DNA of 64,000 bases. Source: Spirogloea muscicola. Lineage: Eukaryota > Streptophyta > Zygnematophyceae > Spirogloeales > Spirogloeaceae. Position numbers and translations under genes: made by a program. The notes beneath the pieces are model-generated. The model saw only the letters and a program-made list of their open reading frames with translations, searched no databases and was not told where the DNA came from. Shown here one piece after another: positions 39,665 to 56,200 of the stretch (its first letter is position 1; each line of letters starts with the position of its first letter). The stretch lies in assembly GCA_009602725.1 (NCBI GenBank), contig WELB01000006.1, forward strand, positions 944,832 through 1,008,831. Direction: 5' to 3'.

Positions 39665-42600
39665 TCATAAGCTGCTCATGCTGCTCAGGGTTGGCCAGAG
39701 CCATGCGTCCATGCAACCTTCTATTAGCGAGCGTGCTCGGTAGATTGCGTCTGGTCTCGAACATAAGGAGGCATCTCCTGCACATGCAGGCATGCTAACC
39801 GTCAACAGTGCCAAGCGCCTGGTAAACCAATTACGCAATCATCATGCTCCTCAGCCTTCTTACTTACTACTCGACAGAAGCTATCACAAAGTACACACAG
39901 AACCTTTGCCAGTGTCAGGTAAGTATGTTGCAGCAATGTTGTTCATATCATGGGCATACCAAAGGCTTGATACGGGCCTTGAGGACATCCTCGAAGGTCA
40001 GAGCCATGTCCACAATTGCTACAAGTGATGACAAGAGCAGGCTCTGAACAAGCAAGGCGAAACGAATATTGACAAGCAGTGATGAGCATGATCTCCAAAA
40101 TCAAAATATGACTGGGAGGTGCATAATGTCAAAGAAGATACGCCAGTCCTGAGCCCCAGTACATTTTGCAGATAAAGCTTCTGGTCAAGACAAGAAAATG
40201 TCAAGCTATCTTGTACCTGACCACCTCCGCATGCTTCGCTGGGATGTGGATAGGCAAGATACCTGAGACGGAAGAGTTCTGCTTTGATGCATGGCGCCAG
40301 GGGTCTTGCGATCCATTTGTGAAAAACATGTGAGAACCTGGCAAGTAGCCCATGCCAATGAACCATTGTTGCTTAGATCTTCTTCGAGGAATCTATCTAT
40401 AAATGTTTAGCATCTCTTCGTCAAGTGTAGAAAGTGCTGGCTTTGTAAGCAGCTTACCGGCAATCTTCTTCCCACCGTAGTATATGTTTGTAGCTTTGGC
40501 ATCTGGCAACAATTTCTTCTGAAATAGCTCCTCACACATTCTAGCGTGATATCTGTGAAACTGAGGCACATCTTGAAATGTTGCTCCATGTGTGGAGCAT
40601 GTGCTCATAGGCTCTCCTTACGGACATATGTGGACCTTCAGCTGGTCCTTTGCCATGCTCTTTGAGTATGCAGCATGAGTAGACTGGATTGAGCAGCAAA
40701 TAAAACAGGACAATCTGGTGATGGAAAAGTCAGCATGAGAGGAAGCAGACTGACGTGAAGTTGATGGAGGCCGAACGAATTGCTGCCTTCTCTGGAGCAG
40801 TCTGAAAGAAGCCAAACTCTGTGCATGTTTGATACCACCATTGTCTTCCAGCTGCAAGCTCAAGATGTGCCGCAAAGGCTTCACTACATGTCCTTACATT
40901 CCCATTCCAGTGACTGACACTGGCTTCATCAATGCACTGCGTTTGTCTCTTGTGCCTTTTCACATTGAGGGTCCGAAGACAGTGTTGACAAATAAGGCCA
41001 GGACATCATTTCACTTAATAGCGCGTTGGCGGTCATTCAGACACATGCATGAACTGTGACCTGTGTGAGGCACCCAAGTCCGACGAAGTCAAAGCTGAAG
41101 AGCATGCAAGTATATCCTCTATTGACTGCGTACTTTCACTCACAGCTGGCAGGTGATGGTGTGACATCGCTGAGGAACTCTCGGGAGTAGGTGAAAGGGT
41201 CAACACCAAATTGGCTATAGAAGAAGTTATTCACATATGCAGCGAACTCCTCCTGCAAGACAATGCAACCTCGTTTGCTGTGAAATGCAAATGTATGGTT
41301 GCCAACATGACAGGACAGTCTTGCTACCAGCATTGTGTAAGCTTGTTGAAATACAGTGCAAACCCTGCAGACATTGAGAAGGTCTTAAGAGCACCTGTAA
41401 TGCAATTACTCGGATAAAATCAAGCACATCTTGTTACTTGACTTGTTCGATGACTAGGCTTACCATGAGATCAAAACCAGCTCGGCTTGCAGCAACAAGT
41501 GGGCCACAGAGAACACTTGGGTGACCATATTGCATCTGCAATCCTTAGCATTCATAAGATCCAACTCAATAGGACAGTCCTTGCCAGGCAGATGTGAAGG
41601 GTACTCAAGCCCGCACTCACACAAGGTCAGCCACAGAGCTATTAGGAAGTTTCACATCAACCTCGCCGACACTGTTGCACATGGTGACCCACCGCAAGAG
41701 CTGCAGCGTCAGCAAGCAAGTACAGGAAGTCCTCGTCGACTGCCACCTGCAATTTATGCAGATGTGCATCAGAAATGCAGAGGTAGACAATTTTGCTGAG
41801 GTAGGTAACAGCACGACTGCTTGCTACTGGCAAACAGCGACAGCTATAGTAAGTGAAACTGCACTCTCATTGTCAGTTGCATATAACCACGTGCCTGCTG
41901 GGCCCCAAATAATCTCTTGACTGCTGTCTCATCCTTTTCTAGGCCATGCTCCACCAAGTCTGTGACCCTCCTCAAAGCAGCTGCACATTCAGATCCAGCA
42001 GACCGAGCAACCTGCAGGAACGACAGTGTGTGAGGGTTGTGCCTGCACAGACTAACACAGAACAGGTTAATATTCTCTGAAAGCATGTGATTCAAAGAGA
42101 GCGTGGTGAGCTGGCCGGACAAGTATCAGCTCCACAAGCCTCAAGTTGCAGCCAAACATCCAAGCTGACAATGAGGTGGTCTTGCAGCTGTGCCAAGGTA
42201 AGCCTGCACAGGATCAAGGCAGAAAGAAGGAGCTCTGTCCTATGCGTGCTAATAGATACCTGCACGTCAAATGCTGTGTAATTGACAATGGCATGTACGA
42301 CAGCCGAGCTGGCCAGGCTTCCAAGTGTGAGATGAGGAAACTTGAGCCTAAACCAGGCACTCAAAGCCCCTGGATAGGAGACGCCTATTACAAACCACGG
42401 ATTATCTCCTGAATATCTAGTGCGATTATAACGCCTGTCGATGGAAGCCTGCACCATCATTCCTTGAAAGGTCAGGCACTACTTGACCAGTATCATGGGC
42501 ATGCGTCCAGCTTTCACTCTTATTGCTGCAGTCTCCATGTACAGAGCCGTATCTCGCCTGGTAAAAGTGGCGGAAGGTGGCCAAGTCGAAGATGGCCTGC

Positions 42601-43435
42601 TTGGATGAAAGATATCGCAGGTTCTCAGTTGAAAGAGTGGAGAATGGCCAACTCTCGCCATAATACCGATGCTCCAGTGCAACTAGTGCAGCTCCATACT
42701 TTGCTGCCAACACCTGCTTATATAGCAAACCATCCGCAGTAAATCGTGGCTGCTATTCTACTCAACTGGTGGGTGATCTGGTCAGCCGGACAAGCCCTTT
42801 CCAACTCCGCATGCACATGTGCACTGGGCTTGGTTGTGCTGGGATGTATTGTACAATTGCCGTGGCAAAGGCATGGCAATTTCTGAAGAAAATTACCGCT
42901 GTGTAGTCTTCCTGGATGCCTGGGCACACGTACTCCCCACAGACAATAAGAAAGATTGGTCCATCTGGCTCCCTGAAGTGTGTGAGAGACTCAAAGTACC
43001 GTTGTTTGAAGACTGCAGAGACCTGGATTACGTAAAGACCACGGCATCTCTGAGCAGAGTCAAATCACACGATGCCTCGACCGCCACATTGCAGATGGAA
43101 TCCTGCAATCGTCAGTAAGCGTGCCCTGCGAATGCCATCTCAGCCACTACAGTTACTTATCAGCTGTGTGCTAGCGCAAAACAGTGTTCAGGATATGTCA
43201 GACGCTCGTGCCCGACCAGCGGAGGCCAAGCGACTGGCATTTGGCGGCAGGAGAGGCCCACCGCAGGCGCAAAGTGGTCGACGGTCTGGTGGAACACGGC
43301 CTCCTGTTGACCAGGCACGGCCACCGTCGAGTCTGGCATTATCAGCGTGCGGAGGCCGGCCGCCGGGCCGGCAGCAATGAGGCAGGCGAGCAGCAGAAAG
43401 ACCGGCGGCGGCCGTGCGAAGCCTGCGACCGCCAT
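39665..43435 (-). CDS. EDA2: Serine carboxypeptidase, family S28 (EDA2/PRSS16-like)
   Basis: A secreted or vacuolar/lysosomal serine peptidase of the prolyl carboxypeptidase family. Thirteen exons close in phase: 43435-43262, 43022-42897, 42713-42558, 42448-42260, 42011-41895, 41746-41693, 41535-41464, 41252-41144, 40851-40755, 40552-40458, 40337-40217, 40018-39960, 39777-39665 (493 aa). An N-terminal signal peptide (VFLLLACLIAAGPAAG) is followed by FHQTVDHFAP, GPIFLIVCGEY, LEHRYYGESWPF, the nucleophile GVSYPGALSAWFRLKFPHL, WWYQTCTEFGFF, NIYYGGKKIAG, FFTNGSQDPW (catalytic Asp) and CGHGSDLRGCPQ (catalytic His). It has two GC-AG introns (after 42558 and 41895). The start is the only Met before the signal peptide; the HAD gene diverges 104 bp away. 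Confidence 0.93.
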
Positions 43436-43539
43436 GGCGGAGCGCGCGCTGGCCAGCGAGGCCGCGAGAGCGACTCGGATGCGGGGAGAAGCTTTGAGAG
43501 AAAGACGACTTCTGGGACGCTCTTAGACTTCTCAGAGTC
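43436..43539. promoter_or_regulatory. Probable shared divergent promoter
   Basis: Only 104 bp separate the start codons of the S28 peptidase (-) and the HAD phosphatase (+). The two transcripts must share this region or have overlapping 5' ends. No TATA box is evident. Confidence 0.5.
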
Positions 43540-46180
43540 ATGGCCGCCTGCCCGGCCGCCACAGCCGCCGCCGCCACCGCCGCGGCGCCGGCTGACGTGC
43601 AAGACGGGCCCGCAGCTCAGGCTGGTCGTCAGGCTGCAGCGGCTGCGGCACAGCGGTCCATCAAGTCGCGACTCCCTCTCCCGCGTCCTTCCCAGAAGGT
43701 GTGTCGCCTCTGGCTGCCTGGTTGCGCTCGGCTGCCGCTCCCTATTGCATGCGGCAGCTTGGATCCCGCTCGTCGGTCGGCGACCGCGGGCCGTCGGAGC
43801 CGCGAGATTGCGAATTTTGTGCATCCGTCACCTGCCGAGAACGGCAGTAATAGCAGCGCTGCATGCATGCTTAGGCTCAGTGACCTGCGAGCAACGAGCG
43901 TGACTTGGTAGCTACCACGAGAAACGGCGTCGCTCAATTCCAATCGCTTGTGCTGGGGATGATCAGGTCCGGCCACGGAGAGGCAGTGCGTCCATTTCTT
44001 CTGGCAAGGCATCAACGAGCGGGCCACCTGCAATAGTCCGGCGGCTGATCCAGGACAATCGAGCATGCCCCTCGGAGCAGATCAGGCTGATAGCCACTGA
44101 CGTTGACGGGACTCTTTTGAACTCAAAGCAGGAGCTCAGTGAACGAACCGTGCGAGCTCTCCGACTTGCTATGGATCAAGAGGTGCAGGTGATGTGGATG
44201 AAATTTGTTCTTCACAAGTAGCCAGTTACTGTTGCCTGAAATCACTTCTCTGTTGATTTTGCCTCGTGCTTGCTGGCATGATAGCGAAGCTGGTTTGGCA
44301 CAGCTGCTCTTTTGAATTTACCTGTGCCCCTGTCATCTGTGGCAGGTTGTCATTGCAACTGGCAAAACCAGGGGGCCTTGGGTAACCTCAGTTTTGCCGA
44401 GATTAGGAATCTCAACTCCTGGCGTTTACCTCCAGGTGATAGTGACGTCTTCGAATACTAGTGACATCAATCATGATGCTCCAACATCAATGCCTGACTT
44501 GATCAGAAGTTGCAGCATCTACTCTGGTCAGACGATATAGCAACCACACAATGATGTGTCTGGCGCCCTTGTGTGGTATGCGGACGACCAGTGATGCTGC
44601 TAAATCATCGGCATCGATGCAAATTGCCCTTGACTTGTCACATCAGCACGTCTGATGTGTTGTCCCTTCTATTTACACTGTTTCCTTACCAGGGACTCCT
44701 CATATACAATGCAGATGGCTCAATTGCATATGAGCGAACGATGGATGAAGCTCTTGCGACCGCTGTGATTAAGCTTGCTCAACAGGAAAACCTTACCCTT
44801 ATTGCTTGTTGTGGTGAGCGAATGTGAGTGTTGACAAATTTTGCATGCACGTCCTGCGAAACCCGTATGATGATCCAGTCTTGTCACAGTCTTATATGGC
44901 TCTTTGTATCGCTAAAATAGGTCTATCTTTCAGCTACTGTAGGCGCGCTGCCCTTGAAGCAAATTTTGCGAAGTCCTGACTGACTTTCTGCTCTCTTTTG
45001 ACTGCAGTCTATGTGAAGCAACAAATTTCCATACTGATCGCTTGATAGGGTACGGTGAACCGATTCCCGAGGCTGTGGGCCCTTTACTCAACATCGTTGG
45101 TAGCTTGGTAATACACAAGGTAGGTGGTCCTGCAATTAGGGCTCCGGATAATTACGAAAATAACATGATGACACGATGAGCAGGTCATGACTGCTCTCAG
45201 CATTTGAAATCGACAGCATGTGAAGCCCTGTGATGACCTTGTGGTGCTTTGTACAAGCCTACAGCATTGTAAAGTCTTCGTCTGTGATGACATTGCTATA
45301 TCAAGTTCATTGAGTGTCTCTGTCAAGTCCGCTTGCTTGAGAGACATGTCTGACAAGCAACATGCAGTTAGTTTGTACTTGTTGATACATTCAGTAAATA
45401 AAGTAGGTCAGATTGCGGGCAAGGCAATGATGACTGATTGCATAAGGTGCTCTGACAATCTAGGATGTCAACAGATCTTCCACCTTCTGAGGCCTTGCCT
45501 GCTACTCTTGATAGTTGCAGTCGAATAGTGACATAGTGCAAAGTCTCGCTTTCAAACCCAGTCTGTGCATTGTGCTAATAGGACCGATACCAACTCAATC
45601 ATAACTGGAATCCGGTGGTTATGCTGCAGCTGCTATTCATGTCCAGCGACAACATTCTGGCTCGATTGAGACCAGAAATAGAGCTTGTGCTGGGAGACAA
45701 AGCGACAATTGTAACAGCTCTGCATGGAATGCTTGAGGTCCTACCAGCTGGTGCTTCTAAAGGCCGTGGCCTGGCACAGGTTCTTGCTGACCTTGGCATT
45801 GACCAAGGCAAAGTCATGGCTATAGGAGATGGTAGGTGTACCTGCCTTCCACAGGTTCTCCACAGTGGGTTCCTGGAGATGCATGTGTCACAGGATGTCC
45901 TGAACGGCTGGCAATATTGAATTTCGAGTCATACGTAAGCAGAATAGTCTTCAATAAATCGGGCTGCGCCAACAATTGCTTCCGGCCTCCTCGTAATTGA
46001 AAGCTTTTGTTGTGCACAGGGGAAAACGACATTGAAATGCTGAAGATGGCTGGCTTTGCTGTGGCCATGGGCAACGCAGTAGAAGCACTCAAAAAAGTTG
46101 CACATCATGTCACTTTGACGAATGACAACGATGGACTAGCTGTGGCTGTGGAGCAGTTTGTTTTGAGTGCAGGTCACTAA
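43540..46180 (+). CDS. Cof-type HAD-superfamily phosphatase, probably plastid-targeted
   Basis: A haloacid-dehalogenase phosphatase of the Cof (class IIB) type, likely acting on sugar phosphates or similar. Exons: N-terminal exon(s) from ATG 43540 (Ala-rich leader, transit-like; its join to the next exon is not resolved), then an exon ending 44188, 44346-44435, 44693-44823, 45008-45119, 45582-45831, 46020-46180, all phase-consistent. Motif I is IATDVDGTLLNSKQELSERT; motif II is VVIATGKTRG; the cap domain includes GLLIYNADGSIAY and RLIGYGEPIPEA; motif III Lys is in PAGASKGRGL; motif IV is GDGENDIEMLKMAG, then AMGNAVEALKKVA. It ends FVLSAGH. Frame is open for about 50 codons upstream of motif I (VRRLIQDNRACPSEQ). 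Convergent with the LRR-UNG gene. Confidence 0.88.
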
Positions 46181-46493
46181 TGCTTAGAAGAGAATCTTGG
46201 AGACGTTTTGGGCTCTCAAAGCCCTCCTATGCTCAGGTCAAGGTAATTTGCATGAAAGGGTGTGTATGTGAGTGTCTTTCTTTGCAGTGTAAGGGCCAAG
46301 CCCAAAGCTCATAGAAGTGCAGGTTCCTGTTTCTCTCAAGACAATGATACATTATTCAACTTCAGTGCTTGACCATGACAAGCTGCCAGCGGCAAGATGA
46401 CTCTAAGCATGATGTCAGGCCACCCATTTCCTGGTTATTGTATAGTCAATAAGCAGCATCTATTATCGTTGTCGTTGAGCCTAAGCACTCGTT

Positions 46494-49400
46494 TTAGCAG
46501 GGAAGGGTCCAATCGATAGGATCGAGATTGTTCTGTATAAGGTGCTCGTTGATTACTGCAAAAGACCTGTTCTCTTCATCTGCAAGAAAATTGCAGGCAC
46601 TCTCATCAATAGATGCCAGCTTTATTTTTACTTAATCCTCAATGCTTCGCAAAAGGATGTCAAGAATGCTAGCCCAGGACCACAGAAGGCATACAAGGCT
46701 GCAGTGTCCCTGTGATCACCTGCAAAATTGTTCCTCGGATTGGCGGGCACTGGCTCCACAATGCACTTGTGCTTCTTGCCAGAGAGGTCCTTGACTTCAT
46801 GGTCAAACTCCTGCCAACAAGTACGGTAACAGCCAGGTATGGTCAGGGCCAGCAGGCCAAATTCATGACTGGGGTGTAAACTGTGTGTCAGTAAGGCCAC
46901 GTCAACACCAACAGAACCATTCACTTGATGCCAATTGTGCTTAATATCCTGCGAGAGTCATGCAGGCACACTTCATATTTATGCTGGGTAACACAACACT
47001 TGTACATTGTTGTCATATAGCGTAGGAGTGGCCACGGAGTCCATCCACCAATTCGCACGATTTCTTGTGCAGATCGCAGAGGAGGCACAGGACTGCATGT
47101 TGGGTCAAGACGAAGCCATTGGCATGAGACCTTGAATGTGTCTCGCACTATCCTGCTCTTGTGTGAGCCCCAAAAAGCAAAGGGGATACAGTCGTGGTTG
47201 TGTGCAACGGTCTCCAGGATAGCCCTGCAGAAGGGAAGCCATAGTTCCCTGTCGGTGCTGCCGTCTGTGTCTATCCTTAGCCAAGATGTCATTGCCATGT
47301 TGAGTAGGAGCACCCCCTGATGCATGGCACAAATTTTGTTGTGAGCCTTCCATGTGCATGTAAATTTCAAGAGAACATGGTCAAAGACCCCCTGTCTGCT
47401 TCCAACCACAATGTCAAGCCACCTATAAGCCACATGGATGTGATGGCACGCACGGACCAGACTAGGTGTCAGATGGTGGCTGCACTCGAACAACTTGCCT
47501 GTGAGGCCCACGGGGAAAGATCTCCAGAGGCAGGAACCCTCCACTCCCTTCCAAGCTCCAGCGTATGCAGTCTCAGTGCCTCAAGTATATAGTCCATGTC
47601 TTGGTCATACAAGGGGTCCAATCTGTACTGCGGATGCAATGATTGTGCCGAGCCAGACCCGCAGGGGAGTATATCAGTTTATGCCACATGTTTGAAGACC
47701 AAAGGTGTCCTGGTTGATGTCCTGGCTGACAAACTCGTGGACCCTTCTGTTGTTACAGTTCTGCTGGCCTTCTTGATGCAACTGGCTGAGGAGTGACAAC
47801 GTCCAAGCACTCGCTTTGACATGAAAACAGTGACTGGCAAAGGCCGTATGGTATAAATCAAAGAGAATGGCACACATAAATTAGACTCAGCAATGTGAGG
47901 TTAAGCAGACACTACCTCAGGATTGGAGAAGGCAAGGCCATCTGCATGATCCTCCTTTATCTGGGTCGTTGTCCTGTCAAGAGGAACTTGAGGTGTCAGT
48001 GAATGACCTGTAAGGCTAGACAAGCACACAAAGGTAGCTCTAGACGACATCGGAACAGTATGCACTGACTATATCCAGTTTCTCTTTGCTGCTTGTATGA
48101 CATACTGAGGGGGCCTCCTTTTCAAGGGTTGCTCAGAAGCGTCTGGGATACCCAATTATTACGGCGCGCACTTGTGACAAGGGGCATAATTCCAGAGCCC
48201 GGAAAATCTTCTCTTTCCTGCCAGATTAGAATCAGCCTATGGTCATTTTTCGTCCAACCCCGGGCTCAAGTCAGGATGCTTAATGATCTTGGTCGTCAAA
48301 ATGAGAGAGTGCTGTACAGCACGCTGCGAAGTGGTACAGCTATGGTCTTGGCAGGCAGCGCAATGGACCGCACTTCTTGCCTTGGAGTCACCTGCCCGCC
48401 ACGGGCCCATATCTCTTCAAGTTCTTGACTGATCTTGGCCAGTGCTGTTGTGTAGCCAGCTCGATGCTGCATTGCATGTCTCCAGTCCTTGGGAATCAAC
48501 TCCTCCAGTTGTGCTGGGTCGCAAGACGAGAGAAAGAGTTGTCCCCCACGATGACGACTGTTAGCATCTTGTTCATGTGAGGCTCTGTCCTCATCATGAT
48601 GGTTTGTCATCAGCATTGAGGAACTGCCTTCATTGTAGACGTTGTCAAGCGCAGACGACTCAGCCAGCTCACTAGAACATTGTCTAGGACAACCTTCCTG
48701 CTCCCCTCCTGATACCTCCATTGACAATTGCCAGGCCTTCCCTTCTAAGTGCAGTGGCAGTGCACTTGTTCCAGCTGCAGATGCCGTGGCTAGTCCACTA
48801 TCAGCATCTCCAATCTCGTTCGATGCTGTCCCCAGCTGCGAGGTCGCTGCCTCTGGGCCCACCGGTGACAATGCCTCTAACAGCGTGTCCTTCGTCGGCG
48901 CAGCTGCAGGGACGGCAGCAGGCTTGGCACCATCTATCAGCTCGTCACTAGAAGCGGGAAGGCGAGCTGGTTCTGTCCAGCCCGGGTTGCCCGAGAGAAA
49001 GACGCCGCCAGCGGCAGCATCTCCTCCTTGCGACGAGCCAAAGTGGCCCAGTCGCCAGGAGTCACCGGCGACAAACGACTGGAGGCGGGGTGGCATGGCT
49101 TCCAGCGACGACAGCTCCTCGATGCCCAGCAGGCCGATGCGGTTGCTGCACAGGTGCAGCCACAGGAGCTGCAGCAGCCCTTGCCTCTGTCTGACCGCAG
49201 AGGCCAGAACTTTAGCTCCAGCCTCCCCAATCTCATTCAGACTAAGCTCCAGGACCTGGAGCCTGTGATGTCCACAGAGAAGCAACAAATGTAAGCAGGA
49301 AGGGTGCATCCACATGGCTATTTGGCTCTCTGGCATGAAGATGTGCTCAGTAATTTATACAAACATTGTACTGAGATACTCAAGAATCAAGCAGACAATG

Positions 49401-50805
49401 ATGAGGCTCTCTTGCCCAGGGAGGAAGCTTACGGCAGGCCAGCTCCGATGGCCTCTGCGACAGAACTGGCTGCACTGTCCCCTAGCGCGTTGCCGTACAG
49501 ATACAGCGCCTGCTCACCGAAGTTGAACCCGTAAGCAGGGCAATCCAGAGTTCCAAAAGATTTCCATTGCAACAATCTACTTCAGAACTTGCACACTGCT
49601 GCTGCCTGTGCTGATTTTATCCAGGCATTATCAAGTCAAAACCAGAGACTTTAGAATCTGCCTTGTGACAAGCATCTAGTCAATGCAAGCTCCTACTGGG
49701 TGAAGCTCAAACCTCCGACTTGCCACTGCAAGACCTGCAAGGCCGGACGAGAGTCCAGCAAATCGAGAGCAGCAACCTGCTACCTTAGGCAGCCTCGACC
49801 TAGGAGCTCAGTGGCTGCTCCATGTGAGCCGGTGGACTTACCTTCAAGGACATGCTGGGAAGCAGACTCTCCATCAGCATAGCAACGTCGGCGTCCGACA
49901 AGCCATTGCAGGACATATTAAGGACCTGACAGATCGGAAGAGGAAAGACAACAGAGCGTTGCCAGGGTCAGCACAAGTACCATGAAATGCTGTGCCTTTG
50001 CTCTAGTCGACATGCACAGTGAGGAAGATAAGCCCATACAACTCACTCAAGAGATTAAGTGAAATGCTAATCCCATTCCCATGGCCCAGACTTTGAGACG
50101 GCTAAGTGCAGCACGTGGGCCCTCATCAGTCTCGCTTTCCAACCTGGGTACTCAAGGCTTCATGCGCATCTGCCGAAGTGCATGAAAATCTTTGCTGCAA
50201 TGCAGCTTTGCTTGTGGAAAGTCTCGAGCTGCGCCACAGACCTGCAGGGAGCGGTTGCGAGACAGTGCGTCGGCCAGCGGCTCGAGGAAGCCCGCCTTGG
50301 TGCCCGAGTACGTGCCAAAGTCATTACCCTGAACTCCGGGATACACACAGGCCAGAGCACCCAAAATGAGGCAAGGGCCGCGCAGTCGCCAGCGATCCGA
50401 AATCCTTTATGGGGTGCGGAGGACGACTTAGTTGCTCTAACATCTCGGACAGACATGTTACCGGCAGTCTCCATCGAGCCCGTCCGCTTCATGATCGTCA
50501 GCGACGGTCTCAACAACACCAGACACTGTCCACTCGACCGTATCAAGCGTTGCACGTCAAGCTTGGGCCAGCAGCTGAGCATGCTACGGAGTTGGTCGGT
50601 CACCAGGGCCAGAGTGCCGGACCTGGAGGTGCAGCGCTGTGAGGGTCTCGCTCTCAGCGATCGCCTCGCAGAGGTCGCGCCAGCGACAGACTGCCTCCTG
50701 CCAAAACCCGTCGTGGTCGCCGGTGCTCGTCTCGCGAGGCTCCAGACCCCCTTCGAGCGTTAGGCTGTCGCCAGCCCAGGCTGAGCTGCTCCGCCACAGC
50801 ACCAT
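46494..50805 (-). CDS. LRR protein fused to a uracil-DNA-glycosylase fold lacking catalytic residues
   Basis: Exons (-): 50805(?)-50623, 50328-50242, 49925-49842, 49509-49433, 49262-48374, 48207-48152, 47973-47916, 47627-47499, 47316-47131, 46810-46720, 46579-46494; phases close from 50623 onward. The first exons each encode one ribonuclease-inhibitor-type LRR (ALSRNRSLQ/VLNMSCNGLSDADV/ALYLYGNALGDSAA/LQVLELSLNEIGEAGAKVLA). The 889-bp exon carries the last LRRs, an Ala/Ser/acidic linker and the UNG N-terminus (LIPKDWRHAMQHRAGY...). Then follow IFRALELCPLSQVRAVIIG, GTTTQIKEDHADGLAFS, GDLSPWASQGVLLLN, FAFWGSHKSRI, KCIVEPVPANPRNNFAG and NNLDPIDW. The motifs replace GQDPYHG and HPSPLS. One intron (after 47499) is GC-AG. 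The N-terminus is uncertain and may extend toward 50950; ATG 50805 is provisional. Confidence 0.8.
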
Positions 50806-51069
50806 GAGCGGGAAGAGCTTGTAGCGGAGGTCGACCGCCGTCTGCGAGCTCCACGTTGCGGCAGAGCATCAGCCCCATGGCCGTCTCCGAGCAAGACTCG
50901 TACGCACGGACGTTGGCGTCAGCTCATCAGAGCACGTCAGACAGTCCAAGAGGTGCGCGCGACGCACCGCATAGCCGGATCGGAGCGTCTGCAGGGCCTC
51001 GGCCAGCGCAGCTTGGGCCTTGGCCGGCGGCAGCGCGTCGGCGGCGGCGTCGGCGGCGGCGGCGGCGGC

Positions 51070-51553
51070 GAGGACGAGAAGAAGCCCGCTGGCGATCAGA
51101 GCCAAAGCCACATCAATCTCAAGGTCAAGTCCCAGGTAAAACACTGCTGCCCCGTCCTTGGGAGAGCGTTCCGCTGCAACTGCAGTGGCAGTGTTGGTGG
51201 CTCCTCGCTGGCTCACTGGATGCCAGTCAAACCCTACAACAACCTGGGTGTGCGCTAGTTGCATCTGGCAGCCACCCGTGCCGCATATCTGGTAGGCTAG
51301 TAGCGACTCTTGACATACTCGCTTGGTATTTCCGGTCTTCAGATTGCTGCTCTTGGATGTGCTACCCTGTTGGACTGACTACATAGCTTCAATTGAAGTG
51401 CAGGATGGATCGGAGGTCTTTTTCCGCATCAAGTCTACTGCCACCTTCAAGAAACTCATGACAACCTACTGCGATAGGCAGAGTGTAGCGATGGATTCGA
51501 TTGCTTTCCTGTTTGACGGAAGGCGCCTTCGAGCAGAACAAACTCCCTCTGAG
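51070..51553 (+). CDS. SUMO: SUMO (small ubiquitin-like modifier), both ends missing
   Basis: A ubiquitin-fold modifier conjugated to lysines of nuclear proteins. Two phase-matched exons: up to 51135 ([22 protein letters not shown] in two parts, preceded by a Gly run) and 51404-51553 ([48 protein letters not shown]). These match SUMO residues from the flexible N-terminus to about 20 residues before the Gly-Gly end. No in-frame ATG is seen upstream, where the frame runs through a GGC repeat, so an indel or an upstream exon is likely. The last exon (acidic loop and di-Gly) is absent before the N at 51757 and was probably lost there. The 5' region overlaps the 5' region of the LRR-UNG gene head to head. 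Confidence 0.85.
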
Positions 51554-51756
51554 GTGTGTTTTCTGAATTGTTTTAGTCTGTCATTGAGCACTGTGTCCAG
51601 GTGTCTCTAGTCCTGCACCAAAAACTGCTTGCTTAGACAGTTGCAGTCTACTTCCCATATTCCCGTGTTTTGATATGTAGACCTGAGCATCTGTCGATGA
51701 AGCCCAAATTGTCCTGTTGGCTGAGCTAACTTCCATTTGTATGGTTGAATTGTTAC

Positions 51757-51757
51757 N
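51757..51757. other. Single N, probable collapsed gap
   Basis: To its left SUMO lacks its last exon; to its right SEC13 begins abruptly at about residue 100. Both losses at one point indicate a gap of unknown length written as one N. Confidence 0.7.
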
Positions 51758-52944
51758 GGGCCGGTGTGGCAGGTGGCCTGGGCGCACCCGCGCTTCGGCG
51801 CGCTCCTGGCGTCCGCCTCGTACGACCGCCGCGTCGTGCTGTGGAAGGAGGCCGCGCCCGGCCAGTGGACGCAGGCCCAGGTCCGCCGCCGCCGCCGCTG
51901 CCGCGCTGGCGGCTTTCGTCACGCCGCCCGCCGCCGGCTTGGTTCTCGACGAGGACCCACATCCACGATTCGATCCACACTGGTTAGAATGTGCGACTCA
52001 GCCTGAGATACTGAATGCCAAGCTTGGTCCGCCATGGCCCTCCTGCAGGTGTTCCAGGAGCACGATGCGAGCGTGAACGGCATCGACTGGGCGCCGCCGG
52101 AGCTGGGCCTCTGCCTCGCCGCCGCCTCGTCCGACGGCTCCATCTCCGTGCTCACCGCCCGGCCGGACGGCGGCTGGGACCGCGCCAAGATCTCCCAGGC
52201 GCACCCCGTCGGCGTCACCTCCGTGTCCTGGGCGCCCGCCGCCGCGCCCGGGTCCCTCATCGGCGCCCCCGCCTCCACGCCCGTCCAGAAGTTCGCCTCC
52301 GGCGGCTGCGACAACACCGTCCGGTGAGCGAGCGGGCCAACACCTGATCCTCTCCGCCACTCCCTCGTGGCTCGTGCGACGGCTTGCGGCGAACATGGGA
52401 CCCTCCAATGAGAGCCGGTCGTGGAGGCTGGCGACGTTGCTCCATGTTCTTTGGTGCAGCGTACTCATGCTCTGCCCCAATGCAGGGTGTGGAAGCTCTC
52501 GGATGGGAGCTGGAAGATGGACTGCTTCCCGCCGCTGACCAAGCATACGGACTGGGTGCGCGATGTCGCGTGGGCGCCCAACCTTGGCCTGCCTAAGAAC
52601 ACCATCGCCAGCGCTTCGCAGGACGGCACCGTTGTCATTTGGACCCAGGTAAGGCTACAGCTGTGCGATTCAAGTATCTGTGCAATGCTCGGATGTGAGT
52701 CAGCAGCGGGCTCTGTCGCTCTGTCCTCACCACAGTTCTCTATGCCACCGTCTACTATGCTTGTCAGGGCAAGGAGGGCGATCAGTGGGTCCCGATCCTG
52801 CTGCACGACTTCAAGACACCGGTGTGGCGCATCAGCTGGTCACTCACGGGCAACATCCTCGCGGTCGCGGACGCGAGCAATGCTGTCACGCTTTGGAAGG
52901 AGGCTCTTGACGGCGAGTGGGGCCAGGTCACAACGGTCACCTGA
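51758..52944 (+). CDS. SEC13: SEC13 (COPII coat / nuclear pore WD40 protein), 5' end missing
   Basis: A seven-bladed (six plus donated) WD40 propeller that forms the COPII outer coat with SEC31 and is also part of the Nup84/Nup107 complex. Exons: 51758-51880, 52049-52323, 52486-52648, 52768-52944 (phases close). Signatures: [109 protein letters not shown]. The first one to two WD repeats are missing at the single-N gap. Introns start GTCCGC, GTGAGC and GTAAGG. Convergent with the PPR-SMR gene, about 350 bp apart. Confidence 0.93.
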
Positions 52945-53291
52945 GTCTGCTGTAGTAGCAGGTCTTCCATGAGAGTCAAACTCATTCTGCAGCCGGAGCT
53001 TGAACAAGCCCACATGTCATAGGATGCGCCAGATCCAGCCTGGCCTGTGAGGGCCCTGCTAGTGTGTCCGCACTTGTCTTTACACTGGGAGGAGCCAATG
53101 GCGCAGCTATGACCAATGTTGATATAGGCACTGGTGACTAGCGCGTGGTACTCGCTTGCCACTGTTGATGAGCAAGCACCCTAGTTGGCCTGTGCAGCCT
53201 GCAAAGCTCTGTCAAGCAGGTGTAACCTGAGACGGCTTCCTGTGGTAACCTGAGACGTACACACTTTTCACAATGGCCCATGTTGGGGGCG

Positions 53292-56200
53292 CTAGGGGGC
53301 ATTTGTTACGACTCTACTGCGCTGCCTAAGATCCGCAAGCATTGGGAGCTTGGCGCCGCAACCACCATCTTTCTCTGCGCATTTGCGCCGGCTGCTGTCC
53401 CACACCTTCCCACACCCGCACTGCTTCCTGTACTTGCCGTCATCGCCAAGTACAAGCGCACCGAGCGCCGGCCCTGTATGAGCTGCTCCACCTTCGCTGA
53501 CTCCCGCAGCTGCATGCATGCTTGCTGAAATGGGGCCTTGCTCATCGGCCTCCGAAAGTGAGACCAACGCTTCTTCTTCGAGCTCTTCCATGGCGTCCGG
53601 GTGCTCAGTGGCCTCAGCGGCCTCAGAGGCCTCCATCTTGCTCGAATCCCCCACATTGCTGTCTATAGTGGGCAGCGCAGTGCTGCCCTCGCCATCCTGC
53701 GCCTGCTCGATCCTGTGAAGCCATGAGTAGTCGTTCCTGAGGACAAGCTTATCCGCGGTCTCTTCCTCTTGCAACCACTTGCTGACGGCTGATGCCGGAG
53801 CCGTGAATGTGCCCGGCGAGTCAGCTTCCGTGAATGGGGCTCCGAGATTGCACAGTTCTGCAGCTGCAATGGTCGGTGGGTGGCATGTACAGTTCAGCAA
53901 GGGTATGAGAGATGCAACAACTTGTTTCACAAGTCCTAAGAGATGCCTTAAGATGATCATATGCTTATCCGTGAAGATCAATGGTCGTCCAACCAGTACC
54001 ATGATTAGCACAAAGCCACAGAAGACCCACAGAAGACATAAAGAAGACACAGAGACTGAAGCACGGAGCACGTAGGCACGGGCAACAAAAACAGCCAAGC
54101 TGCATGGCTGCCGTGCGTGACAACAGCAAGTGCGAGCAGGTCATCGCGTTGCTAGTCAGACCAAGTAGCACAAACGAGCCACAGAGGTGCGAGTGTACCA
54201 ACTGCAGCTCGAAGGGGACCCACAGCACCACCTTGCACAGGCTTGCCCTTGCCTGTGCTGATCTCTAGCAACTCTGGCAGGTCACTTTGCCCACGCAAGG
54301 AGCGGAGCCAATTGTAGATAGCCACACGGCCTGCCCCAGTCGATAAGGAAGCCAGCCTCAAGTAGTGCACACCTGCGACCATGGACTTTGAGTGCTATGT
54401 CAAGTCGCTTTATCTTGCAGATTAATTGTTAAGAAGCAGAAAGCAACACATATCAGACAACCATCCATGTAACGAAGACCATGACATGTAGACGCACCAG
54501 CATCAAGATAAGCAAGCAGGTGTTGCGATCTGTGCATTGAAAATCAATTGGTCCTGTTGCATCGTGCTAATTATTGTGCTGACGCAGTAATTTCGAAATC
54601 TTTCAGCAGATACCTTGATCATCAAGCTGGGCAAAGATGCCGGACTCCAGTCCTTGACTGAGCAGGTGCTCTGCTCGTTTCCGCAGGCCAAGGTGCCAGA
54701 GGGCATCCAAGGTGGAGTTCAGCAGAGGCAGAACACTACCGCCATCGACAAGATCCACAATCTGTGCCAGCAGCTGAGTGCTGCTGGTGCCCTCCTCTGA
54801 GGAGGATGTCAGGTATTCATGAAGGTCGGCCGATAGTCGCTTGATGCAAGAGAGGACATGGAGACAGTCCTTGCCCGTCCTACAGAGTGACAGCGACCAC
54901 AGCAGGCACTGCAGAATGAAATAGTCGTTGACGCCAACATCCTGCACCAGAAGACATCAGCATAGCAAGTCAAATTGCAGCAATAAGAGTGCTATCAAAA
55001 GTGCAGTTCTCTATGCCTTTCCTTTCGTAAAGTCCTTATAAGTCCAGGATCTGTCGCAGTTGACTTCACGGATGTCCAAACATAACGAGCACAGGCTGTA
55101 AGAGCCCAACACCTGTGAAAGGCTCGAAACAAGTTCCTTGATGGAGTCGAATCTGTAAGCCCTGGCATAGCCACGCACAATGACTGCGTACAGGGCTCCA
55201 TCAGGTGCAGCTCCAAGTGCCGCGAGGCTTCGCAGCGCTCGACCTACATCTGCATCAGGTGCCAAGGATATGTGCTGAACGTGGACATTAATATGAGCAA
55301 TCCCAGTTAACCGATACTTCCCTTGTCCAAAATAGCATGTAATTGTATACCCCTAAAACCAAAGGCCTGTAACCCCTGATCCCTATTCTGGATCTTTAGT
55401 TGGAGAACCACACTGCTGACCTGGCCTTACGCAAAGCTGGTGAGAGGTACATAAATCACAGAGGCACAAACTTGCACAACTGAGACACAGCAGGTATGTC
55501 ATGAGCGTGCTGCTCTCACTGTGCACTCCTGTTACATAGCCATTGCGAGTCATTGCTACAAATACCACCAACAGGCGCAAGGACTGCTTTGCAATGCATG
55601 AAGCTTTTCTAGCCAGAAGCTAGTACCTGCAGGCCGACCGGCCTCTGCATACAGGCCCGCAAGGGCCCTGTAGGTGCCATCGTTGGGCTTGACCTCCTTA
55701 TCCAGCATCTGCTCGTAGAGCGCAAATGCCTTCTCCAGGTCTCCCTTCTTGACCAACAACCGCAGCGCAGAATTGTAGATGACCACATCACCCCTGACTT
55801 TGAGTTTACTCATGTGCTCCAGGAGGGAGACGGCTTCCTCCGACCTGCCTTGCTTCTCAAAGGCGTGGAAGAGGATGTTAAAGGTCACATGGTTGGGCTT
55901 GACGCCAGCAGCCTTCAAAACCAGCACAGTGCTCTTGTCAGTCTGGGCGTCCATAAATGGCTTTTTCTGCTGATTGGACTGCCTCCATAGGCACCTGGGC
56001 ACTTGAAGCGCCTGCTATACAGATGTATTTACTGAAGCACAAAAGAAGAACGTGCTAGCAGCTTAGCTGGTTGGGCAGGCTTGCTCATCTGATAATCGCT
56101 AACCAGAGACACTGAACAGGAGACTTGACGTACCAGCATCTCGTTGAAGACACGGCTGGCCTGGTGTGTCATGCCCTGCTTGCCAAAGATGTTGATCATG

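Follow-up and report, generated by a model that had tools for sequence, protein, structure and literature searches.

Leucine-rich repeats in one open frame with a uracil-DNA glycosylase fold that lacks catalytic residues

Gene structure at the locus

The window, i.e., the whole 64,000-nucleotide stretch of DNA that was analyzed, carries on its minus strand, at 50805-46494, a gene of eleven exons with 1941 coding bases and an open frame of 646 amino acids. The encoded protein presents RNI-type leucine-rich repeats (LRRs), a linker of approximately 180 residues, and a family-I uracil-DNA glycosylase (UNG) domain, in this order, and is hereafter referred to as LRR-UNG. Its exons are presented in Table 1. 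Copies of the gene are labeled A, B and C, while names such as C8, C9 and C272 denote contigs of the same genome. In this genome (153 Mb), the light-harvesting protein family is matched 68 times, hence the organism is photosynthetic, and it is probably an alga.

Table 1. Exons of the LRR-UNG gene and the candidate intron at its 5' end, in window positions.
Feature	Positions	Strand	Content
Candidate intron	50842..50967	-	Upstream exon's last base would be 50968 (GTGCGT donor); L1 extension 50841-50806 (TCGCAG acceptor)
L1	50623..50805	-	N-terminal cap followed by the first LRR, read from a conserved ATG
L2	50242..50328	-	LRR
L3	49842..49925	-	LRR
L4	49433..49509	-	LRR
X1	48369..49262	-	894 bases; end of the LRRs, linker (about residues 207-382), N-terminal helices of UNG
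X2	48152..48217	-	UNG stretch KEKIFRALELCPLSQVRAVIIG
X3	47916..47973	-	TTTQIKEDHADGLAFSNPE replaces the water-activating loop QDPYH; GLAFS retained
X5'	47499..47627	-	UNG helix and GDLSPWASQ; followed by a GC-AG intron in all three copies
X6	47131..47316	-	GVLLLN uracil-specificity strand and WGS (Gly-Ser) loop
X7	46720..46810	-	HPSPLS replaced by VPANPR
X8	46494..46579	-	C-terminal helix, DPIDW, stop

The sequence-only reading of this DNA had proposed that LRRs are fused in frame to a UNG fold, and that six exons beyond a long exon complete this fold. The fusion is confirmed, with one open frame in each of three copies, and all six exons are present. As had been claimed, the long exon, X1, runs from the last LRRs through the linker into the UNG domain, yet it ends at 48369 rather than at 48374, since an end at 48374 would break the phase with X2 and the five further bases restore it. 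The claim of a constant phase among LRR exons did not hold: the introns after L1, L2 and L3 are in phase 0, and the intron into X1 is in phase 2. Nine introns are GT-AG, and the one after X5' is GC-AG (donor at 47498); considering ten introns in three copies, canonical splice dinucleotides are found in 60 of 60 cases. The stop-free run of X1 comprises 352 codons, ranking fourth among the N-free runs in the window.

An extra exon at 47833-47757 was rejected, as in the other two copies it either contains stops or gives rise to them, and its donor there is GC instead of GT. Leaving this exon out and placing the acceptor at 47627 opens the frame of all three copies and makes the best UNG profile match, previously split in two, continuous.

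The ATG at 50805 may not be the true start, and the protein comprises at least 646 amino acids. An upstream exon ending at 50968 is tentatively proposed. The frame of this candidate exon and the L1 extension is open, and the splice sites are kept in three copies; substitutions in the candidate exon region are not enriched at codon position 3, a pattern that does not point to coding. The first-exon region in the C8 and C272 copies contains N.

A HAD-type hydrolase gene lies downstream of the LRR-UNG gene, on the plus strand. Window positions 51028-51756 carry SUMO exons, are 99.7% identical to C9, and end at a single N (51757). In the C272 block, a WD40 gene adjoins the LRR-UNG gene with an N run between them, and no SUMO match is found in this block, though the N run could hide some. 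Given the C9 identity, the single-N end and the gene order in C272, the SUMO stretch is probably an assembly patch and no true neighbor of the LRR-UNG gene. More SUMO-like matches, at 84-86%, are located on C196 and C67. A 374-base piece at about 43539-43912 of the window shares 99% identity with C31:601173-601542 and recurs in part, inverted, at C272:54767-55065; it is perhaps a recent mobile element.

Identity of the domains and their copies

When compared with the PDB, the LRR part presents ribonuclease inhibitor as its best match (E 8.8e-22), and it matches Pfam LRR_6 above the cut-off, in agreement with an RNI repeat type. The Pfam search found no NB-ARC or NACHT domain, and the modeled N-terminal half gives four LRR families only. 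Searching the genome with the LRR part and the start of the linker returned, at E<=1, only exons of the three LRR-UNG genes among 16 scored candidates, these counts being lower bounds. Judging from its composition, the linker is probably disordered.

The UNG domain is matched in all three copies by five NCBIfam uracil-DNA glycosylase models (best E 1.5e-24), and the match of copy A spans profile positions 4-223 of 225. Its score of 87 bits is far below the curated equivalog cut-off of 162. Against UNG structures in the PDB, the best E was 4.5e-12, a value obtained with an earlier gene model containing one extra exon. The Pfam UDG model gave no match to the UNG part of the protein; the same Pfam search of this genome yielded 0 matches, while the control matched in 13 of 14 genomes and an NCBIfam model did find exons. 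Given the Pfam UDG model misses the domain, the protein is easily overlooked, as Pfam-based annotation shows LRRs only. No close relatives of the UNG domain were confirmed by tblastn in two scans of viral_contigs and one of genome_contigs, in which peptide patterns matched 2, 195 and 166 stretches with 0 confirmed.

Two further LRR-UNG paralogues are located on C8 and C272, with the same order, all ten introns, and open frames from ATG to stop. They sit in duplicated blocks that include the 40-45 kb region of the window, at 82-87% identity. More broadly, much of window 40000-53500, of C8 from 1058934 onwards, and of C272:45000-58937 exists in triplicate (82-94% DNA identity, introns included), which may reflect polyploidy, a hybrid origin, or large segmental duplications.

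Purifying selection acts on the LRR part, the linker and the UNG part alike. According to the Nei-Gojobori method, dN/dS among the copies is 0.27-0.30 for the UNG part, 0.36-0.37 for the LRR part, and 0.46-0.48 for the linker, with bootstrap upper bounds of at most 0.51, 0.66 and 0.81, respectively; intron divergence among the copies is 0.17-0.19. Considering A-B and A-C together, gaps divisible by three account for seven of seven in exons and 14 of 46 in introns. Between B and C, these are one of three in exons (gaps of 11, 8 and 3) and nine of 29 in introns; the gaps of 11 and 8 cancel to an in-frame net, so that the coding lengths are equal and both frames are open. The three copies belong to one genome, hence they are not equivalent to independent species.

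As the copies are open, under selection and share their introns, a chimeric assembly, a chance open reading frame, or a misreading of two genes is unlikely, and the single-gene architecture proposed from the sequence is supported by three paralogous copies under purifying selection. In particular, it is very improbable that an LRR gene and a neighboring UNG-like gene were merged by the gene model alone. Although LRR plus UNG is an unusual pairing, X1 by itself crosses the junction with no stop in any of the three copies, and the linker presents the constrained dN/dS given above and no net frameshift. TGTAA, an algal poly(A) signal, was not found within X1 on the minus strand.

Loss of the active site and origin of the UNG domain

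The active site of UNG comprises, in human numbering, D145, Y147, F158, N204, H268 and L272, according to the available part of PMC1936997, and the motifs are also given in the available part of PMC5538708. The genome's own canonical UNG was used as reference for the active-site alignment. The position of GQDPYH, between IIG and GLAFS, is occupied in exact register by GTTTQI in copy A and GTKTQS in copies B and C. HPSGFS of the own UNG (HPSPLS in human) aligns with VPANPR in A and C and with VPANLR in B, which places Val at the catalytic His position in all three copies. The L272 position holds Pro in A and C, Leu in B, and Phe in the canonical UNG of the genome. Thus, the equivalents of D145, Y147 and H268, three of the six active-site residues, are missing in every copy, while those of F158 (GLAFS), the Phe that stacks on uracil, and N204 (GVLLLN) and the Gly-Ser loop (WGS) are retained in every copy. 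The Pro-rich loop is lost, and a YRLDPLYDQD region occupies its place. Considering possible alternative splicing, each copy's UNG region was searched in its three forward frames and no DPYH-type motif was found, a search which is not exhaustive for motifs split across a junction.

The variability of eight stretches, picked after viewing the alignment, was compared among the copies, with p values uncorrected. The former catalytic loop is more variable (6 of 10 columns, versus 43 of 254 elsewhere; Fisher, uncorrected p 0.004), and residues 132-154 around GVLLLN are less so, as none of 23 columns vary (uncorrected p 0.010). Four of the eight stretches present an uncorrected p <0.05: these two, the former Pro-rich region, and the first ten residues, the latter two being more variable.

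According to these alignments, it is almost certain that the UNG part is no glycosylase. The sequence-only reading had been silent on the loss of catalysis, now seen in all three copies, and that the protein is built on a working uracil-recognition fold is not supported, given that no copy retains Asp, Tyr or His, Pro replaces Leu in two of the three, and there is no Pro-rich loop. That the domain is still an active glycosylase, with an atypical active site and directed by the LRRs, is highly improbable: the fold, LLLN and GS are kept, and glycosylases with altered motifs exist, e.g., UdgX, but the equivalents of the catalytic Asp and His are missing throughout and the loop is variable. Equally remote is a pseudogene family in which the UNG part has been decaying since catalysis was lost. 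The active-site motifs are indeed lost and the dN/dS of the UNG part exceeds that of the canonical copies, yet the three frames are open, the splice dinucleotides are intact, and dN/dS is well below 1.

Ordinary UNG, with QDPYH and HPSG, is present in two copies, on C169 and C183, whose dN/dS of 0.12 (first four modeled exons) is below the 0.27-0.30 of the LRR-UNG domain. In the C169 copy (C169:284000-290000), one exon start lacks a single base that the C183 copy has, through either an assembly slip or decay. The LRR-UNG domain and the C183 UNG share one intron at the same position and phase (between Q and GVLLLN, phase 0), and a second pair of introns, at the IIG loop, lies 4 bases apart; the remaining introns, four of six and three of five, do not coincide. 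The UNG domain presents 28% identity to the own canonical UNG and scores about equally against E. coli UNG, hence sequence distance leaves its origin undecided. Derivation from the host UNG is likely, mainly on the basis of the exactly shared intron and the 4-base offset.

Further divergent UNG-like exons or ORFs occur at C102:483240-483593 (L025), C31:1-339 (L026) and C6:405228-405533 (L027). By eye, L026 and L027 resemble endogenous giant-virus DNA: L026 has a long helicase/primase-like ORF near its UNG-like ORF, and L027 reads VGQSPYPG. In L025, 208-1443 and 1236-2841, both on the minus strand, look by eye like retropepsin-like ORFs next to one that resembles a DNA cytosine-methyltransferase; the UNG-like ORF adjoins them on the opposite strand, and they are possibly a retroelement with a methyltransferase.

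Proposed role and comparison with known systems

The explanation we favor, and consider reasonably probable, is that LRR-UNG is a non-catalytic adaptor or sensor with a pseudo-UNG domain, encoded by one gene in three diverged copies. Given the catalytic residues are gone, the protein is probably a binding protein derived from a retired repair enzyme. The UNG fold would have been kept as a folded binding surface, with catalysis abandoned. LRRs commonly serve for binding other proteins; here, the LRR arc would bind one protein partner, the pseudo-UNG domain a second protein, a UNG partner, DNA or a base ligand, and the flexible linker would tether the two, the whole acting as an adaptor or sensor.

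Two narrower roles were also considered. That the protein is a reader, which binds uracil or uracil-DNA and does not cut it, is unlikely. GLAFS, with its F158-like residue, and LLLN, with its N204-like residue, are invariant in the three copies, and the invariant stretch 132-154 is in line with such a role; however, the Pro-rich loop is lost, the intercalation loop is altered, and LLLN may be retained for folding alone. Somewhat less likely still is a decoy or sensor, in which the LRR protein would detect a molecule directed at UNG, such as an inhibitor or a viral partner of UNG. An enzyme-derived fold stripped of its catalytic residues and joined to LRRs would suit this role, as would a fast-changing former catalytic loop and the UNG-like exons which lie, by eye, in giant-virus-looking stretches of the same genome, and the integrated decoys of plant NLRs offer a parallel. 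Against this role, the model has no detected NB-ARC or NACHT domain. A Ugi-type mode common to the copies is also disfavored, since two of them carry Pro, and one Leu, at the intercalation position, whose Leu inserts into the Ugi cavity in UNG (PMC1936997, available part). A bolder version carries a small probability: the retired repair enzyme would be the sensing end of an LRR protein, reading uracil-DNA or serving as bait for a viral factor directed at UNG, and the genome would, by eye, apparently carry endogenous giant-virus DNA in which further UNG-like genes occur.

The sequence-only reading knew of no described protein of this type; likewise, no LRR-UNG protein was found in the open-access PMC full-text literature, judged by titles and the starts of abstracts. 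If transcribed as modeled, LRR-UNG is a domain combination not found in that open-access literature, and one in which a family-I UNG fold was selectively kept though both catalytic residues were lost. This raises the question of what a UNG fold that no longer cuts would bind. Dead UNG has been made in the laboratory, and LRR-UNG would be its natural counterpart.

In comparison with RNI-type LRR proteins (ribonuclease inhibitor, the LRRs of NLRP proteins, and RanGAP), LRR-UNG has the same repeat type, but few repeats, no nucleotide-binding domain found, and a C-terminal UNG fold. Family-I UNG (TIGR00628/NF003592, including the C183 enzyme) is alike over the whole domain, with LLLN, GS, GLxFS and the C-terminal PIDW, whereas in LRR-UNG the GQDPYH, Pro-rich and HPSPLS motifs are lost or altered, and LRRs and a linker are added. 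Mimivirus UNG also has a long extra N-terminal domain; in contrast with LRR-UNG, it is an active enzyme, and the available part of PMC5538708 describes the extra domain as short helices, not LRRs.

A functional parallel is poxvirus D4, the vaccinia UDG, an altered-motif UNG fold with a protein-binding role independent of catalysis, as described in the available part of PMC1936997. D4 is a processivity factor that binds A20. According to PMC1936997, five of the six residues (Asp, Tyr, Phe, Asn and His) are present in D4, which is still uracil-specific, and no LRR is described there, whereas LRR-UNG lacks the Asp and His and does have LRRs. D4 is therefore a precedent for a UNG fold being able to act as a protein-binding subunit independently of catalysis.
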